Origin: a virus
Virus record (IMG/VR): IMGVR_UViG_3300030117_007386
Span: 1 to 40,453 of that record
Direction: 5' to 3' (one strand)
Length of the DNA stretch: 40,453 bases
Below are positions 1,473 through 40,453 of this stretch, piece after piece (the stretch's first letter is position 1; the number at the start of each line of letters is the position of its first letter). Both the position numbers and the translations under genes were made by a program. Under the pieces are notes generated by a model, which saw nothing but the letters and a program-made list of their open reading frames with translations, made no database searches and was not told the origin of the DNA.

Positions 1473-4400
1473 TTACTCCAGATCGATCTCCATGTCACCT
1501 GGATCAGACTTTTTCAATTTTTCCTGAATATCTTTTGCCTCTTCAAGCCGCTCGTCTGTTTCATCCGATTCGTATTTTGACGTGTCAACATACCTCGCAC
1601 GGCCCCGCTCTTTGAATTCTTGGAATGTGCCCTGGGCTTCCTTCTCACGCTCATAAGCCTCACCCGCTGCAGTTTTTCTTGGGTTTACGTCACGAACGTC
1701 CATGATTCCAAGGGTTCTCATCCATTTTTGAAAATCACCGCGAGCACCAGCTAACTCTTCTGCTGGCGTTTCCTCCATCTTTTTCATATAACCGTTCAGT
1801 TCATCAAATGGTGAGTGCTTCAAAAACATAGCAGGCAAACCACCGCTAATGTAATAACGTTTGGTCGGGGCTAAAACTCCGCCGCGCAAATACGGGTCTT
1901 CGGGCGGAACTTTAATTTTACCCGACCGATAGTCTTCCATAGCTTCTGAATACTGCATTTTTTTCGCTAATGGATCTTCCTTAGGATCAACTGCAAGAAT
2001 CTCAAATCCGCGCGAATCCAATAATTTAGCCAGTGGTGCCGCAATTCGATACGGTGCGGCTGATTTATTTAGATCAACTGCAGCAGCTAAATCGGCTGCA
2101 AGCAACGCTCTTTCAGGCTGAATAAGTTCCAACAAAGGATAGGCAACAGTAAACAAGTCGCTGCCGTCATCCTCATTTAAAATATACTCCGGTCCAATTG
2201 TCCGCATATTATCCATAATTTGGAAGATTGCTGACGTTGTAAGAACTGTATGGTTTGCGGCTGCTTTGTAACTTTGTTCCGGTATTAGAAACGTACTAAA
2301 CGTTCTATTGGGATCGCTAACCGAAAGTAACGCATGGAATGTCTTATTCGCCTCATTCATGGCGTATGGAACTTTAATCGCGTCACGAGTCAAATCGAAT
2401 CGAGCCATAGATGATCTCGACGGTTTCTCTACGTAAAAACGGTTGAACACACCCCGGTACTTTTTCATCTTGTTGCGTAGCTTAAGACCTTCAGAATCTA
2501 TTTCGTACCAACGACCATCTTCAAATATTGTACTTCGACCAGAAAACGCAAGCTGAATTTGACGTTTCAGCGGTTCAGGGATTTGAGCAATTGGCACACC
2601 ATATTCTTCGAACAAAGCATTTTTGAGTCCTTCATACGCATCACGCTCAGTGTCATTCATTTGGTCAACGTTAAACCCAAGAGGATCTACCATGTCTTCG
2701 TACAACATTTCAGACATAAAATCTGTGCCTTTCGAATATGACCGATTCAAAACACCGAGTCGGTAGGCGCCACGAGGACTAAAGACAACATCGAGTAGTT
2801 GACGATTGGCGTTCTTTTGGAACGCCCAGAAGGGGAAAAAGACACTGATGAGCCAGTGTCTGTCTGCTTTTGACATGGACCCAGCGTAGTCATACAAAGC
2901 GTCAATGCTAAGACGTGCCGCCTTGCGTGGGTCAACACCCATTTCGACAAGGGTCAGCATCGCGCCAAAACGTTCGCGCTCACTCCAACCTTCCGCCATG
3001 TCCTCGGCGATCTTAACCATATCGCGCGCAGTCGGTGCGCCAGGAATCTTCATTAATCCTGTGCGTTTCTGCATGTCAGAAATAAACATGTCGCCTACCT
3101 GGCGAATTTTTGTACCCAATTCAGCCGTATCAAAAGACGCGGCCAGCCCTTCCTCAACACCAATTCTACGCAGGTCGGCGTATGAATAAGCGACACCATC
3201 GACCATAAGGCTTCCTGGTCGACCCTCGAGTAGATCGTTCAAGTCTCCGCGCCATTTGGATGATCGAGTTAAACTCGCAGCCAAGCTTGCGCCCGCATCA
3301 CCCATGCTCGTAAGTTTTGATCTCAGTATCTCACCCGCTTCATTCTTTCCGGCTTTTTGAATACCTAAAAGAGCGGTTTGTATCGCAGGGTTCGCCGCAA
3401 AAGTTTGCGGGATAACTCTCATTGTAGACACAAGTGCTGGACGGAACCCTACAATTTGGCTCATTTGGTTAAAGTGATCCATCGTGTTCATCCAGAAATA
3501 TCTGGATTTCAACAAGAAATGACCTCGAACCATTCGGGTTTTCAGGTAGCGAGCCGTCCAAGCCATAGCTAATTGTTGTGTCGTCTCAGCCTCGCGAATA
3601 CCCTTACCGATTGCTTCAAAAAGATCCCCACCTTCAATCTTTATTGTGGGATCAGTTGCTTGCTCCAGCGCCATCGCAAGTTTTTGTCGCGCCATTTTGG
3701 GTACGTAAAAATCTAAACCCTCTAATGTTGCGGCTTCTAAAAAATTAGGATTGTAGCCATGCACCTGAAATATTTGCTGCACGCGTGCAAAGTCTTCAGG
3801 GTCGTCAATTGCCTCACCCATAATCCATTTCTTAAAGTTGGTGGCGTCTTTCGCGTCCACGACCAAGCCGAGATCAGCCCACTCCAATCGAGCCTTCATT
3901 GCTTGGCCGTGACCGGCGATTAAACAAGTAACTCTATTCGCCACTGGAGCATCTTTGATGCCCTTAGCCTTAAAAGCACTGCTAATATCTGTATAAAGTT
4001 TCTCGAACTGCAGGACTGAATTGTTTGACAAACCCTCTTTCGCAGCCACGTTACCGGTGATTTCAAAAATACTTTTGAGCACTTTGGCATGAGAGGGCTC
4101 GATTAATCCTTTTTCAGTAAGACCTGTTGCCTTGAATATGTCAGACAACAGCATGCTACCCGAAGGATTAAATACTAAATCCCTAAAAGCTTTTTCAAAT
4201 GCTTCCTGTTCTTTCTCACCGAAGGGAAGCTTGTCGCCGATCTTTTGGTCCAGCTTTTCCTGCAGAAGCATAATCTGCTTAAACCTTTCTGTATTTTCTG
4301 CACCCTGAAAGTTCGCAATATATTTTTGAAGCGACTCAACCGAAGCACCCATCATATCGTGACCAGCACTTAAAACGTTCCGACCAGATTTAAACTTTAC

Positions 4401-7400
4401 TGATGGACTTCCCGTAATGTACTGAACAAGTTTATCGCGTACACCCTCACTAATTAGAGTGACGGTTTCACCAACACTTTGTTGCGTGATCCTAACTCCA
4501 GCACGAATGCTATCCCGAATAGCAGGCGGTAAACCTCTCATATCTTCGATTGCATCACCACCGAGATAAATGAATCGGGCCGCTTTTGCCAACGGCTTTG
4601 ACTCTTTCACGTATTGATCTACCAATTGCGAGGGAGTCAATTCTTTGATGGCGCTAACCTGACTTTCCAAAGCAATTTTTTTAGTCGCAGGATTGTCTAT
4701 GAATTCTTGTTTTCGGGCAAACGCATGGGCACCATCAGCCCATTCTTGCAGCGTGTATGATGCTTGGGCCTTTTTGGTTCTTAAACCGCCCAAAGAAACT
4801 GGTCCTGGCAACTCAATCCTGACCTCTTTGGTTAAGTCTTTACTTTTTTCCTCGTATGCTTTGAGAACTTTCTTTTTAAGTTCTTTTACTGATATCGGAT
4901 AGCCCATCCGATCGGCGCGCTGAGATACTTGCAAAAGATATTTTTGCTGTGTGTTTGTCGGTAGGTCATCGATCAACGCACGACGAATTGCTTTAAATAG
5001 GTTTGGTGCGCCAGTATACCGAGGCTTTTGTCCGTACAAGAGATTGCCGAATACCTCTTCAATCTCAGACGACGGCGTAAATCGTGCGCCATCAGCTTGA
5101 GCCTTTTTAGCTGAAAAGAAACTCTCAACCACAAAGTCCCGAACTTTTTCAAACGTTGACCGTAAATCCTCAACTGGTGGTGGCGCATCCTTCACAAAAG
5201 CTGCAAAAGCCTTAGCAAAAGCTTGCTCTGCTTGCTCAACAACTTCGGGGTTATCGGCTATAAATGCAGAACCCTTTGCCTGTACTTTAATGCCTTTCGA
5301 AGACAACCAAGAAACAACCTTACCCATTTCGTCTGCGTTTAGATCACGTCGGGCAATACGGTTAATTTGAAGCATTAAGTTTTCAACTGTCGTCGCCTCT
5401 TCCATCACACGAACAATCGTCTGCGTATCAGCAATAAACCGTGATGGCTGCACGGCCTCATCAGCTTTAGCCAAGTCAGTAAACTCCGGTTTTTTCGTCG
5501 CTAAGATTTCATCGGGTAACTTTGCCAAATCGTCTTTTGAAATAACGTAACGATGCGAAATGCCTTTACCTTTGTCAACTCTAGCCAATCGGTCAAAGGG
5601 TATACCTTCGCTGTCTAAACGAGCGTAAATACGTTGGGCGTCTGCGGACGGATTTACGTCACTTGAAAAAGCCAATCCATCTTTTTTCGCTTTCTGTAAA
5701 GCAAGACGGTACAAGTTAGCGCCCAAGCCTCTACCCTTGAGATTTTCCGGTAGCGCCACAGATTTAACTACGAGTGCGCCGCCTGAGACTTCAAACACCA
5801 TACCGGAAACAAAATCCATACCTTCCGTGTCAACAGAATCACGTATAGCTTTTGTCGTTAAAAGTTGATTGCCCAACTCTAATTTACGTATTTCAGGATC
5901 AGCTAAAACATCAGGAAACAAATCAATTGCTTCAGACACTAAATCAGCATCGGCGCCAGTATCAGCCCCAACAGTCGGTCTACGCTGTAACTTAGGAATT
6001 AAACTTGAAAATCCACGAGTCGGATCAGCATAAATATCTGCAAGACTCTCACCTGTTTTATCGTGAATGTTCTTCAACATTGTGTCTAAGTGCCGCGTAA
6101 TATGCATTGCTGTATCGCCACGCATAGCGGGAAGGGCATCTTCAAGTTGAGCGCGGAACGCCAAAGCAACAGGAGACAGTTTGTCCGTGCCAATTTCCTC
6201 GTATTTGTTTGCAACGCTTTGAATTACAGGGGCGACATCAATTTTAGACTGCTTCGCAAAAGTCGAACGTACAAGCGCATGCGCCGCGCCTCGAGACTCG
6301 ACCACACCAGCCAATGAGTTTGTCACGTCGACAACAGCTTGATTTAAATCAGCTTCGCTAACTGACTTTACTGTTTGCCGCGCTAAGTTCTGCGCCGCAA
6401 CACTTTGTTTATTTATCGTTTCATCCAAAGAATCCATTATGGTTTTCTTGAGTTTCTTTTCTCCTTTTGGAAACTTCGAGACAAACTCATTGAGACGACC
6501 CTTGAATTCTGTGGGGTTTTGAACCAACAACCTTGATGCTTCAGTGCTTCTCAAAAATGTGAACGTGCTTTGAATTAAATCCGTTACTTGAGCCGTTTGC
6601 TCTTCTGTTTGTACGGTTTTAAATCCTCGCTTGCTAAGCTGTTTGCCCAAAGCTTCAGTAATCGGACTTATGTTTTCGTTGTAAACTTTTCGTGCCCAAG
6701 CGCCCGCAGTATCTTTGTTTTGAACTTTTTTCGTCAGTTCAATCAAGCCATCAATTTTTGGTACAACATCAAAAAACTGTTCGTACCCCACCAACTGTGA
6801 TTCGGCTTCGCCTCGGGCAAGAACACGGCCGACAGCCGGATGAACGTAGTCTTGGCGCAAACCAAAATCAGAAAACCCAAGAACTTCGTCTAGCTTGTCA
6901 CTGCCAGAGCCTCTCAACAAAGGCACTTCACGGGCGATCTCGCGGGAAACAACTTCATCGGTGCGGTCCACAGACCTCGCCATTTCAGGTATGTCTCTAC
7001 GGACGGGCTTCTCGGCATCCTGCGCCAGTCGAGCAGAATCCTTCGCTTGCTCTAAAAGTTTGCGGGCGTCACCATAATTACCTGCAGCAATGTCATTTGC
7101 GGCTCGATTGATCAAAACTTGAGTGTTAATCATTTCAGTCGCCGCTGTGCCCAAAAGGTCTAAGCCCTCCGAAACGCTAAGCACCGGGTCACCACCAGCC
7201 GCACGTTTAAGTTTGGTGATGCGGGTGTTGACGGCAGGAGCAAATTTTGCAGCCAGCTCCTTTGCTGTAGCACCGGCCTTAGCCAACCCAAGCGTTGGGT
7301 CCGGTGCCAAAATGTCAATCATCAAACCGCTCAAACCATAAACAAGTGCCTTCGTGTCGCTGCTCCTGGCGCCCTCGCTTGATAACATTAGCTTAGTAAA

Positions 7401-9260
7401 ATCTTTGGCTTCCTTTACACCTTCAATCGAGCCTTCCTTCAAAGCCTCAATAAACGACTCACCTTCTGGTCCACGCAACACCCGCTCTGCTCCGCCAGCG
7501 CCGACGCTCAGAAAAATGTTTAGTTTGTTGAACAGCGAATCTAAGTGGCCTTCCGCCCGGTAGACGGGAACACCTTTTTGATCTAAACCAATTAGTTGGA
7601 CGCGATTGCGGCTCGCCGCTTCAAACAAACGTGGCAAGTAAGCGCCATCTGGACCCAAACGCTCTTCTTGCATGTAGTTATCGGGGTCCATAAACTCGTA
7701 CGATACAAACGCAGGAACACCTAGCTTTCCGGTAGTCAGATACATTGCTACCTGTCGCACGTTGCCTTTAATAATGTCTTGTCGAATCTTGTACTCTTTT
7801 GAGTCTTCAGACATTGATTTCGCTAAAAAAGCTTCCTTGGTCAGACCCAACTTTTTCGCGATGATTCCGACGTCATACTCAACCCCCGTCTTCATCAATT
7901 CTTGAAAGGCACTATCTGAAAACGTTTCCCGAATGCTGTCAGCCGAGTCTTCACTAAACTGAGCAAGCTTATTGGCAATGAGTTTTGCACGTTCTTTCTG
8001 TGCTGGATCAGATACAGCGTCGGGATCAGTTAACTGACGTACCGTTTGATTAAACGTATTGTGTGCGGCGGTGCCTGGTGCCGCGATCTCGTTTAAAACA
8101 TTGCCGTCCTTCGCCTCTTTGTCGGTCATCAAACGATATTTAGATCGTGCATCACGCTGCATCATTTCTAAAATTTCAGCGCGTTTCTCAAATTCAATCT
8201 GGTCTCGAGCAGTTGTTGCCGGCGTCTGCTTTGCCGCCTGATCCAACAGCCGATTAGCTTGGCCTAAATAAGCTTGTCGGCCCTTAACATCACCAGGCTT
8301 TCGTGCAGGTTTCTCGAACTGAAGCATAAATTGTTTTGTAAGTTCGTTCGCATCAACGTTTTTGTCCCGAAAAACAGCTAAGTTATCTCGAGTGTTAACT
8401 GCCTCAATAATCTTTTCCATTTGAAATCGCGGATCTTGAAGCTGCTCTACAGTAAAGTTTCGACCCTCACCCGAACCCGCACGATTAAACTGCCACACAC
8501 CGTGGGAGTCTTCGCCACCAGCCTGATTTTTACCAAACGGGTCAAGACGGCTTTCCGCAATACCATTGGCAAGAATCGCAGCCATTTGAGGTTTGGTGAA
8601 TCCAGCTTCCGTACCCATTTCGTAAACAATCTTTGCAACTTCTGCCTGTCGTTTAGATGGGTCTCGGATTTTTTTAAAGTCGATTGGCTTTGTAGCTTTA
8701 GTTAGATCACTTGACTTGAATTTATCTAACTCAGCCTTTGTAACGTTAATTTTCTTTTCGCCCGAAATAACTCTGGCTTTCCCAATATCAGCAATTTGCT
8801 GCTTTCGAAAATCAACCCGATACTTGGTCCTGATGTCTTTTATTCCTGACTTACGTTCAGAAAGAGGTTTTAAGGACACCATGCCATCAGACTCTAAACC
8901 CTTAAGTACTTTATTAGGATCTTGACCCTGACGCCCCACTTTTTCGATTAACTCTCCAACCTCAAAACCTTGATTGATTGCCGCCTTAAAAAACTGTTCT
9001 TCTGTTAAACCTAAACGGTTGCTATGCTTTTTTACAATTGTGGGAAGGGAAAGAAAAACATTTTCTGCACCCTCAAAAGAACCAGGACCAAACGCAACGT
9101 CACGCTCAGACTTGACAAAATCAGCCAATTCACGAACCCGAAGATCGACACTAACAGAATCAATTTCCGAATTTTCTTTCTCTTCGAGCGATGAATTACC
9201 AACAACAGGCGTTATCGTTGACTTCGGCTCGGACTCAACTACCTGTTTATCTTGGGCCAC
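1473..9260 (-). CDS. Giant virion protein with lysozyme-like and acetyltransferase-like domains (likely DNA-ejection protein)
   Basis: At 2595 residues this is by far the largest protein here. Residues about 205-330 resemble a phage tail lysozyme/transglycosylase fold: AAILANGIAESRLDPFG places a candidate catalytic Glu near 236, followed by a GVWQFN motif near 254-259. Such domains cut peptidoglycan so the ejection apparatus can cross the cell wall. Residues about 1135-1240 look like a GNAT acetyltransferase-type module, with GRGLGANLYRLAL near 1176-1188 as the acetyl-CoA loop and helix. Near residues 2115-2165 is the sequence DYAGSMSKADRHW then FFPFWAFQKNANRQ, a style I recall from large internal phage proteins. 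Most of the rest is helical and charged. The start is GTG, chosen because a GAGGTG site lies about 5 bases upstream. Size and position suggest an internal or ejected protein of the T7 gp16 kind, though sequence identity with it is not visible. Confidence 0.8.
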   Translation of the reverse strand: MAQDKQVVESEPKSTITPVVGNSSLEEKENSEIDSVSVDLRVRELADFVKSERDVAFGPGSFEGAENVFLSLPTIVKKHSNRLGLTEEQFFKAAINQGFEVGELIEKVGRQGQDPNKVLKGLESDGMVSLKPLSERKSGIKDIRTKYRVDFRKQQIADIGKARVISGEKKINVTKAELDKFKSSDLTKATKPIDFKKIRDPSKRQAEVAKIVYEMGTEAGFTKPQMAAILANGIAESRLDPFGKNQAGGEDSHGVWQFNRAGSGEGRNFTVEQLQDPRFQMEKIIEAVNTRDNLAVFRDKNVDANELTKQFMLQFEKPARKPGDVKGRQAYLGQANRLLDQAAKQTPATTARDQIEFEKRAEILEMMQRDARSKYRLMTDKEAKDGNVLNEIAAPGTAAHNTFNQTVRQLTDPDAVSDPAQKERAKLIANKLAQFSEDSADSIRETFSDSAFQELMKTGVEYDVGIIAKKLGLTKEAFLAKSMSEDSKEYKIRQDIIKGNVRQVAMYLTTGKLGVPAFVSYEFMDPDNYMQEERLGPDGAYLPRLFEAASRNRVQLIGLDQKGVPVYRAEGHLDSLFNKLNIFLSVGAGGAERVLRGPEGESFIEALKEGSIEGVKEAKDFTKLMLSSEGARSSDTKALVYGLSGLMIDILAPDPTLGLAKAGATAKELAAKFAPAVNTRITKLKRAAGGDPVLSVSEGLDLLGTAATEMINTQVLINRAANDIAAGNYGDARKLLEQAKDSARLAQDAEKPVRRDIPEMARSVDRTDEVVSREIAREVPLLRGSGSDKLDEVLGFSDFGLRQDYVHPAVGRVLARGEAESQLVGYEQFFDVVPKIDGLIELTKKVQNKDTAGAWARKVYNENISPITEALGKQLSKRGFKTVQTEEQTAQVTDLIQSTFTFLRSTEASRLLVQNPTEFKGRLNEFVSKFPKGEKKLKKTIMDSLDETINKQSVAAQNLARQTVKSVSEADLNQAVVDVTNSLAGVVESRGAAHALVRSTFAKQSKIDVAPVIQSVANKYEEIGTDKLSPVALAFRAQLEDALPAMRGDTAMHITRHLDTMLKNIHDKTGESLADIYADPTRGFSSLIPKLQRRPTVGADTGADADLVSEAIDLFPDVLADPEIRKLELGNQLLTTKAIRDSVDTEGMDFVSGMVFEVSGGALVVKSVALPENLKGRGLGANLYRLALQKAKKDGLAFSSDVNPSADAQRIYARLDSEGIPFDRLARVDKGKGISHRYVISKDDLAKLPDEILATKKPEFTDLAKADEAVQPSRFIADTQTIVRVMEEATTVENLMLQINRIARRDLNADEMGKVVSWLSSKGIKVQAKGSAFIADNPEVVEQAEQAFAKAFAAFVKDAPPPVEDLRSTFEKVRDFVVESFFSAKKAQADGARFTPSSEIEEVFGNLLYGQKPRYTGAPNLFKAIRRALIDDLPTNTQQKYLLQVSQRADRMGYPISVKELKKKVLKAYEEKSKDLTKEVRIELPGPVSLGGLRTKKAQASYTLQEWADGAHAFARKQEFIDNPATKKIALESQVSAIKELTPSQLVDQYVKESKPLAKAARFIYLGGDAIEDMRGLPPAIRDSIRAGVRITQQSVGETVTLISEGVRDKLVQYITGSPSVKFKSGRNVLSAGHDMMGASVESLQKYIANFQGAENTERFKQIMLLQEKLDQKIGDKLPFGEKEQEAFEKAFRDLVFNPSGSMLLSDIFKATGLTEKGLIEPSHAKVLKSIFEITGNVAAKEGLSNNSVLQFEKLYTDISSAFKAKGIKDAPVANRVTCLIAGHGQAMKARLEWADLGLVVDAKDATNFKKWIMGEAIDDPEDFARVQQIFQVHGYNPNFLEAATLEGLDFYVPKMARQKLAMALEQATDPTIKIEGGDLFEAIGKGIREAETTQQLAMAWTARYLKTRMVRGHFLLKSRYFWMNTMDHFNQMSQIVGFRPALVSTMRVIPQTFAANPAIQTALLGIQKAGKNEAGEILRSKLTSMGDAGASLAASLTRSSKWRGDLNDLLEGRPGSLMVDGVAYSYADLRRIGVEEGLAASFDTAELGTKIRQVGDMFISDMQKRTGLMKIPGAPTARDMVKIAEDMAEGWSERERFGAMLTLVEMGVDPRKAARLSIDALYDYAGSMSKADRHWLISVFFPFWAFQKNANRQLLDVVFSPRGAYRLGVLNRSYSKGTDFMSEMLYEDMVDPLGFNVDQMNDTERDAYEGLKNALFEEYGVPIAQIPEPLKRQIQLAFSGRSTIFEDGRWYEIDSEGLKLRNKMKKYRGVFNRFYVEKPSRSSMARFDLTRDAIKVPYAMNEANKTFHALLSVSDPNRTFSTFLIPEQSYKAAANHTVLTTSAIFQIMDNMRTIGPEYILNEDDGSDLFTVAYPLLELIQPERALLAADLAAAVDLNKSAAPYRIAAPLAKLLDSRGFEILAVDPKEDPLAKKMQYSEAMEDYRSGKIKVPPEDPYLRGGVLAPTKRYYISGGLPAMFLKHSPFDELNGYMKKMEETPAEELAGARGDFQKWMRTLGIMDVRDVNPRKTAAGEAYEREKEAQGTFQEFKERGRARYVDTSKYESDETDERLEEAKDIQEKLKKSDPGDMEIDLE

Positions 9261-36147: not shown

Positions 36148-36690
36148 TTAGCTATTTGAGCCCGATATTGCGCTACCAGCTACGATTCGGGCCAATCGTT
36201 CGTCGAAATCTACGTCAACTGTAACGCCAACCCGCGTTTCTGCCGACTCTGACTGCGGTGTTATTCCGCATCTGTCCAATATGGCCTCAGATGCCTTGAC
36301 TCGGTCCCGTGGTTGCGCCCCAACGTCCGTAGCCACCTCTAAAAGTGCGCTCAATGCGGCTTCTGCCGCCTCTTGAAGGCCCTCACCAAGGACTTGTTGC
36401 CGCCTTTCCGCACCATCTTGGATGGCATCCACAAATTCTGGCTCTTTTGACCAAGACCAAACTGTTGTTGGGCGGATTCCAAGGCGCCTGGCGGTAGTCG
36501 CAACCGTATATCCGGCCCCAAGCAGACTTTTTGCGGTAGTTTTTAGGGCATCGTTACCGTCAAAACGTGTTTGCTCGGCCAACATCGCAACAACTTCGGA
36601 CTCGCCAGCGGGTACAACAGTGCTCGGCACCAATTGTAGGCCTTCAGGCGACGGTAAAGTCGGTTGAGTGCGTTCTGATTCGTCTTCCAT
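36148..36690 (-). CDS. Terminase small subunit-like HTH protein
   Basis: In 180 residues, the stretch AKSLLGAGYTVATTARRLGI then RPTTVWSWSKEPEFVDAIQD is a helix-turn-helix typical of small terminases and related DNA-recognising proteins. A long helix follows (RRQQVLGEGLQEAAEAALSA), then QPRDRVKASEAILDRCGI, the style of the small terminase central oligomerisation part. The role would be recognition of the packaging site. The weak point is that the large terminase is about 10 kb away on the opposite strand, and small HTH proteins of this type may also be regulators. Confidence 0.6.
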   Translation of the reverse strand: MEDESERTQPTLPSPEGLQLVPSTVVPAGESEVVAMLAEQTRFDGNDALKTTAKSLLGAGYTVATTARRLGIRPTTVWSWSKEPEFVDAIQDGAERRQQVLGEGLQEAAEAALSALLEVATDVGAQPRDRVKASEAILDRCGITPQSESAETRVGVTVDVDFDERLARIVAGSAISGSNS

Positions 36691-39511: not shown

Positions 39512-39874
39512 ATGGCTTATTCCGATAACTCCTGCCGTGTTTGCGGCAAAACCACAGACGGTCTACCGATTGCGTTCTGCTCTGGTCGATGTCTGTACCA
39601 TTCCAACCTCGACCGCGAAATGAAAGTTCTGTTCCGCAACACGGTGTTCGTTCACACCAAGGTAACCAAGCGTAACTGCTCCATCCTGCCCGATTGGATT
39701 CGCAACGACCCGAACGAGCATCAGGTTTTGCGCAGCAACGCTGGTTACTACATCGGTTCTATGTGCGATGACGGTATCCCCTACGCTCGCTACACACCGT
39801 ACCTCAGTGAAGAACGTGCAACCTTCCTCTTCAACACACAACGCTGGGTATTCATCGCTCGCGAAACCCCGTAA
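39512..39874 (+). CDS. Cys-rich small protein with putative zinc site (120 aa)
   Basis: The N-terminus MAYSDNSCRVCGKTTDGLPI, AFCSGRCLYHSN has C8/C11 and C23/C27, suggesting a zinc-binding knuckle. The remainder is basic then mixed (KVTKRNCSILPDWIRNDPNE, PYARYTPYLSEERATFLFNT). The ATG follows the shared AGGAGGCCAC leader. It directly precedes the repeat array; a role in binding it is a testable idea but is not shown. Confidence 0.65.
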   Translation: MAYSDNSCRVCGKTTDGLPIAFCSGRCLYHSNLDREMKVLFRNTVFVHTKVTKRNCSILPDWIRNDPNEHQVLRSNAGYYIGSMCDDGIPYARYTPYLSEERATFLFNTQRWVFIARETP

Positions 39875-39913
39875 CACCACGTAACACTCTGTAACACAAC
39901 CAGTGTTACGCCA

Positions 39914-39975
39914 TATAGTAGGTTCATCCAAGCACATTCTAAAGTGTAACACTGTAACACACTTTTCCTACTATA
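39914..39975. other. Nested inverted repeats in the array
   Basis: TATAGTAGG (39914-39922) mirrors CCTACTATA (39967-39975) and encloses AAAGTGT (39941-39947) mirrored by ACACTTT (39959-39965), with two GTAACAC copies between. The nested structure suggests a complex DNA site or a cruciform-capable element. Confidence 0.7.
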
Positions 39976-40086
39976 CCCTTACGTGACGAGAGTGACAGTG
40001 GGTTTGCAGCACAACGCTTGCGCTAAACCCATTGTTCATTTCTATATGTACGTCCTATCCACAATATCCGTGTTACAGTGTTACAC
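39944..40086. repeat. 17-bp perfect inverted repeat
   Basis: GTGTAACACTGTAACAC (39944-39960) and GTGTTACAGTGTTACAC (40070-40086) are exact reverse complements separated by 109 bases. Each holds a pair of the 7-mer in opposite orientation, framing a central segment that contains the DnaA-box-like site. Confidence 0.85.
40055..40063 (+). promoter_or_regulatory. DnaA-box-like site
   Basis: CTATCCACA differs from the DnaA box TTATCCACA at one base. It lies in the middle of the repeat array, 7 bases before the minus-oriented pair at 40070. Single near-matches also occur by chance. Confidence 0.35.
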
Positions 40087-40088
40087 CT

Positions 40089-40121
40089 CGCGATACCTCC
40101 GGTTCTTCCTACCGTATCGCG
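40089..40121. other. 8-bp inverted repeat next to repeat copy
   Basis: CGCGATAC (40089-40096) mirrors GTATCGCG (40114-40121), with a 17-base loop, and abuts the GTAACAC at 40121. Another dyad, TGGGTTT (39999-40005) with AAACCCA (40025-40031), lies upstream. These add to the structured nature of the region. Confidence 0.6.
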
Positions 40122-40255
40122 TAACACACCACCTGTTACACTGTGTAACGCCAGTCTGAACACTGCAGCAAAAGCCAGGTTCAACCGTACAACACAGCGT
40201 AACACCAGGCTTTCACCAGCGTTCATAGAAACAACCAACCGACCAGGAGGTCAAC

Positions 40256-40453
40256 ATGGCAACACCCAAACTCAAAGTTCTTTACGTCAACACAGACGGC
40301 ACCCTTCCAGGCGCCCCAAACCTCAAGCAGATTTGGACATGCGGCCCCGGTCACTGGACTGCAGAAGTCGTTGCAATCTACGCAGAAGCTTCAGACCCCA
40401 ACGCGAAACCGTACCACACGCATATCGAAATGACGAGAACCGAAGCCTACGAC
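40256..40453 (+). CDS. Small protein, 3' end outside window
   Basis: The frame is open for 66 codons to the window end: MATPKLKVLYVNTDGTLPGA, then NLKQIWTCGPGHWTAEVVAI and YHTHIEMTRTEAYD. AGGAGG is 6-7 bases upstream in the shared leader. It follows the repeat array, so it may be the first gene controlled by it. No family recognised. Confidence 0.6.
   Translation, partial: MATPKLKVLYVNTDGTLPGAPNLKQIWTCGPGHWTAEVVAIYAEASDPNAKPYHTHIEMTRTEAYD

Follow-up and report, generated by a model that had tools for sequence, protein, structure and literature searches.

A two-fold symmetric iteron array as the probable replication origin of a marine tailed phage

The window, i.e. the whole stretch of DNA analysed (40,453 bases, the entire IMG/VR record), carries an array of GTAACAC heptamers that is very probably the replication origin of a marine tailed phage of about 70 kb, namely an iteron origin of the SaPI Rep type served by a phage initiator helicase. 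An iteron origin had already been proposed from the repeats in a preliminary description, and this interpretation is now supported by the conserved geometry of the array, by a concerted change of its heptamers in a relative, and by similar arrays in unrelated phages, where they recur directly 3′ of genes for helicases of the SaPI-Rep/Cch type. The contig is probably a fragment of a longer phage genome, because its large terminase matches 67 loci, some of which are in records of 65-74 kb. A megablast search of window positions 20000-40453 against named phages gave no match, and our interpretation assigns an origin and, by homology, a putative initiator mechanism to a marine phage family without a close named relative.

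Organisation and conservation of the array

The ten exact heptamers are found in both orientations within 335 bp (39871-40205), and their earlier reported spacing was reproduced, with the first three copies 10 bp apart and two pairs having an 8-bp step (Table 1). In the whole window, GTAACAC occurs 15 times against 3.74 expected from dinucleotide shuffles, none of which reached 15; therefore about 0.03 copies are expected per 335 bp (about 0.04 in the preliminary description), and P(≥10) is about 2e-22. The region, which had been called gene-free, is mostly so, the next ORF beginning at 40256, except that the left-hand ORF reaches into the first copy with its stop codon.

Table 1. Features of the array and the small terminase gene in the window
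Feature	Position	Strand	Remark
Outer iteron GTAACAC	39871..39877	+	overlaps stop codon, ORF 39512-39874
Outer iteron GTAACAC	39881..39887	+	
Outer iteron GTAACAC	39891..39897	+	
Left outer iteron, symmetric core	39903..39909	-	43 bp from inner pair
Left inner iteron pair GTAACACtGTAACAC	39946..39960	+	8-bp step; starts 39946, 39954
Central spacer, 109 bp	39961..40069	.	presumed melting region
Inverted repeat TGGGTTT...AAACCCA	39999..40031	.	centred on dyad
Right inner iteron pair, inverted, GTGTTACaGTGTTAC	40070..40084	-	starts 40070, 40078
Right outer iteron, symmetric core	40121..40127	+	43 bp from inner pair
Degenerate iterons TGTTACActGTGTAACG	40134..40150	.	one mismatch each
Distal iteron GTAACAC	40199..40205	+	
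Small terminase subunit gene (phrog_2538)	36148..36690	-	not claimed to bind array

The array is two-fold symmetric about a dyad near 40015. Its 109-bp centre is flanked by two tandem pairs, direct on the left and inverted on the right, and each pair is accompanied, 43 bp further out, by a single copy in the opposite orientation; additional GTAACAC copies are present beyond this core on both sides. Neither the symmetry, with its two 43-bp outer spacings, nor the degenerate copies at about 40134-40150 had been seen earlier. The central spacer is only slightly AT-rich (44.0% GC vs. 47.5% in the window), with clearer AT-richness in two other genomes (42 vs. 52.5 in G014 and 44 vs. 62 in G024). 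The central inverted repeat is weak in the window (p 0.19) and reaches p<0.05 in three relatives; since it is significant in some relatives only, it was kept as a minor feature, and relatives have a stem of differing length at the dyad position. A telomere-resolution site was considered and rejected, as the array centre is not a perfect palindrome, and an Rfam search matched no structured-RNA family. The GC-skew inflection envisaged in the preliminary description was not found at the array; skew tracks gene orientation and transcription, and its lack of inflection therefore argues neither way.

Clustering of the heptamer extends to relatives, with G001, G004, G006, G014, G017 and G068 carrying the same array. 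The six core heptamers (42 bases) are 100% identical across seven genomes and the spacers are 59% identical, the central spacer being variable in sequence and constant in length (109-110 bp) in this family. No counterpart of the left-hand neighbour gene was found in any of the relatives or collections searched; conservation of the array thus does not depend on this gene, which cannot be used as a synteny anchor. In G009, the geometry is the same and the heptamers have changed in concert to GTAACCA; its helicase and that of G014 share 65% identity. Further relatives have one main array with one heptamer each, of types that include GTAACC, TGTAACA, GTCGTA and GTACCA. The array of G092 is doubtful, and in G012, in which the contig seems to stop before the corresponding place, no array was found. 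An SSB-like gene, consistent with a replication region, is located 2-3 kb beyond the array (L213 8964-9449 in G014, with homologues in G006, G017 and G001).

The associated helicase and its iterons

A scan based on the GTAACAC motif only yielded 64 loci with clusters, and subsequent clustering of the neighbouring ORFs picked out a helicase at a median distance of 24 bp from the GTAACAC cluster, in an ORF component that also took in PrimPol-AAA_25 proteins via their common PrimPol domain. Its Pfam domains are DUF927 and a C-terminal HTH_56 (“Cch helix turn helix domain”), and it is sometimes fused to a PrimPol or a CHC2 zinc-finger primase domain. In relatives of the window it matches PDB 8tch, labelled as a pathogenicity island protein (E 5e-31), and 5dgk, an active helicase (E 1e-16). 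The DUF927 + HTH_56 helicase is homologous to SaPI Rep and SCCmec Cch.

Such a helicase is encoded on the same element in G004, G014, G017, G068, G009 and G015. The window has no helicase gene, as the contig ends before the syntenic place, and the gene of this phage presumably lies beyond the contig end. Within the window's family, the array is 2.4-12 kb from the helicase gene and not immediately 3′ of it; in the longer relatives with a GTAACAC array, the distance is 7.5-12 kb. A search with the convergent pattern GTAACACNGTAACAC-N90..120-inverse retrieved 13 viral and 2 bacterial-MAG contigs, 11 of which encode DUF927, the remaining four being fragments, while the divergent arrangement, serving as a geometry control, matched no contig. 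For most unrelated phages, only 0-150 bp separate the helicase stop codon from the array on its 3′ side; G049 and L180 are exceptions, with a distance of some kilobases.

The association was also approached in reverse, by collecting helicases regardless of repeats and scanning 520 bp 3′ of their stop codons. At least five copies of one heptamer were present at 26 of 37 distant helicase loci, as compared to 2.6% of 499 control windows, and at least eight copies at 20 of 37, as compared to none of the 499; by the criterion used, 11 of the 37 had no array. The heptamer itself varies among these phages (TGTCGCC, TGTACGG, GTATACG, GTAACAA, GTCCGAC, TTTACGG and others). The full symmetric geometry was seen in 22 of 42 arrays, a set which includes motif-first and related loci and in which rows are not all independent, vs. 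0.9 on average and at most 4 when the strand labels were shuffled. Among named phages, THSA-485A, FP_Epona and phiRg507T2_3 have an array after the helicase, and the SaPI-like element PT1028 exhibits the same pattern in the same location, with outer spacings of 43 bp.

In a partial Mantel test, HTH_56 similarity predicted iteron similarity beyond that of the ATPase core (partial r 0.15, p 0.026), and in the reverse test ATPase-core similarity carried no heptamer information (p 0.74); the HTH_56-iteron correlation is weak and in the expected direction. The helicase/heptamer pairs make the reading of the iteron by HTH_56 directly testable, and are relevant to the ways in which phages and satellites evade or make use of one another's origins. 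The regions 3′ of the helicase stop in L298-L336 constitute a natural initiator/iteron table, in which many DUF927 phages display their own heptamer in the same geometry.

Origin interpretation and its alternatives

If it acts like its homologues SaPI Rep and SCCmec Cch/Cch2, the phage-encoded initiator helicase, with its MCM-like ATPase domain (Pfam DUF927) and C-terminal Cch-type HTH_56, would bind the GTAACAC heptamers. The convergent inner pairs and oppositely oriented outer copies may then place two hexamers head-to-head across the 109-bp centre, which would melt and let two forks leave. Points counting against an origin are the lack of a helicase in the window, the distance between array and helicase in this family, the missing skew inflection, the modest AT-richness of the central spacer, the 11 distant helicase loci with no array by the criterion used, the weakness of the HTH_56-iteron correlation, the location of the array directly 5′ of the small terminase gene in several relatives, and the existence of phages with GTAACAC clusters and no DUF927.

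Lambda-type origins are similar in that their iterons are bound by a phage initiator, the O protein. Lambda iterons, however, lie inside the initiator gene and are not known to be arranged as two convergent groups, and the O protein is not known to be a helicase. The SCCmec Cch/Cch2 operon is closer in its proteins, since Cch, a relative of SaPIbov1 Rep, contains DUF927 and gave HTH_56 its name, and Cch2 is reported to bind direct repeats downstream of its gene; the putative SCCmec origin has three 5-bp iterons only, and no such symmetric array (PMC7581432).

The preliminary description recognised no known phage system of this type, which proved wrong, as the array matches the origin organisation of phage satellites (PICIs/SaPIs). 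In the Rep-ori systems of SaPIbov1 and PT1028, two inverted sets of short iterons likewise flank a central region; the outer copies are about 43 bp from the inner pair, and the initiator is a DUF927-type protein whose C-terminal domain binds DNA. In contrast to these systems, the present array resides in a tailed phage proper, with a genome of about 70 kb, rather than in a satellite, its heptamer is GTAACAC instead of AGTTCCC, and it is detached from the helicase gene and sometimes adjoins terS. The usual SaPI/PICI position of the origin is immediately 3′ of rep, which is seen in unrelated phages and not in the window's family; both this separation from the presumed initiator gene and the occurrence in marine phages of about 70 kb are unusual for an origin of the SaPI Rep type. 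The window is not itself a PICI satellite, as it encodes a large terminase, a portal and a major head protein. A 2018 survey (PMC6092414) considers the symmetric iteron layout exclusive to PICI satellites among known bacterial replicons; the present analysis shows that large tailed phages and many gut phages have it too.

The most serious rival, in our opinion an improbable one, is that the small terminase subunit binds the array as a packaging (pac/cos) site. It gains from six of the 14 relatives (G004, G015, G096, G097, G098 and G100), in which terS and array are no more than 66 bp apart, and from GTAACAC clusters adjoining terminase-like genes in two unrelated phage groups, as well as from the fact that SaPIs also have terS after ori (PMC6092414). 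In another 6 of the 14 (G009, G017, G093, G094, G095 and G101), however, terS is 7-11 kb from the array and adjoins the helicase, while the array stays in place, and the distance in the window is 3.2 kb. Moreover, where unrelated phages show this geometry, the array has the helicase as its neighbour, with an SF2 helicase, a VRR-NUC protein or other genes on the far side. Packaging is also disfavoured by the symmetric convergent arrangement, which one would not expect at a pac site. Overall, in 12 of the 14 relatives terS is a neighbour of the origin array or of the helicase (homologues in G004, G009, G015, G017 and G093-G101); helicase, terS and origin behave as if shuffled as modules.

The intergenic location, the mixture of direct and inverted heptamers and two weak sigma-70-like matches in the region could also fit an operator or partition cluster, through which a phage regulator or ParB-like protein would control the neighbouring genes. 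This is very unlikely, given that the left neighbour gene is not conserved and the array is, and that its geometry remains constant across differing gene contexts and follows the helicase rather than a regulator gene. As for an attP with arm-type sites for a tyrosine integrase, repeated arm-like heptamers do flank a core containing an inverted repeat, but no tyrosine recombinase was detected in 15 records (the family and others with the array), with all control genomes positive; integrase is absent both from the window, a fragment, and from longer relatives, and arrays adjoin helicases, not integrases, which leaves this explanation with hardly any probability.

Returning to the SaPI-Rep-type origin, we tentatively suggest, as a possibility somewhat short of a favoured one, that DUF927/HTH_56 helicases and symmetric origins may form a widespread re-programmable phage replicon, in which the geometry is fixed and the heptamer has diversified with the HTH domain, so that each phage or satellite would have its own origin specificity. 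The origin of the marine clade might then be a separate module acting at a distance and shuffling with terS and the helicase, extending the PICI-type organisation to free-living phages.

Other GTAACAC clusters and minor observations

Differently laid-out GTAACAC clusters were found in L095, L144, L152 and L167, about 10-24 bp 3′ of a gene for a PrimPol + AAA_25 (RepA-like) helicase, which belongs to a class different from DUF927. In the L075 group (14 contigs) and the L071 group (12 contigs), GTAACAC clusters lie beside terminase-like genes and are candidates for an origin or a packaging site; no DUF927 helicase was found for these two groups in the records searched. The left-hand run of large minus-strand ORFs in the window includes a 2595-aa ORF (1473-9260, minus strand). 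A GTAACAC array of the opposite, divergent polarity (+ / -- / ++ / -), which is symmetric as well, is present at L127 7064-7447. Finally, L082 and L085, two contigs of 23,456 bp, contain 24 and 39 GTAACAC copies in the stretches examined, far above any origin array.
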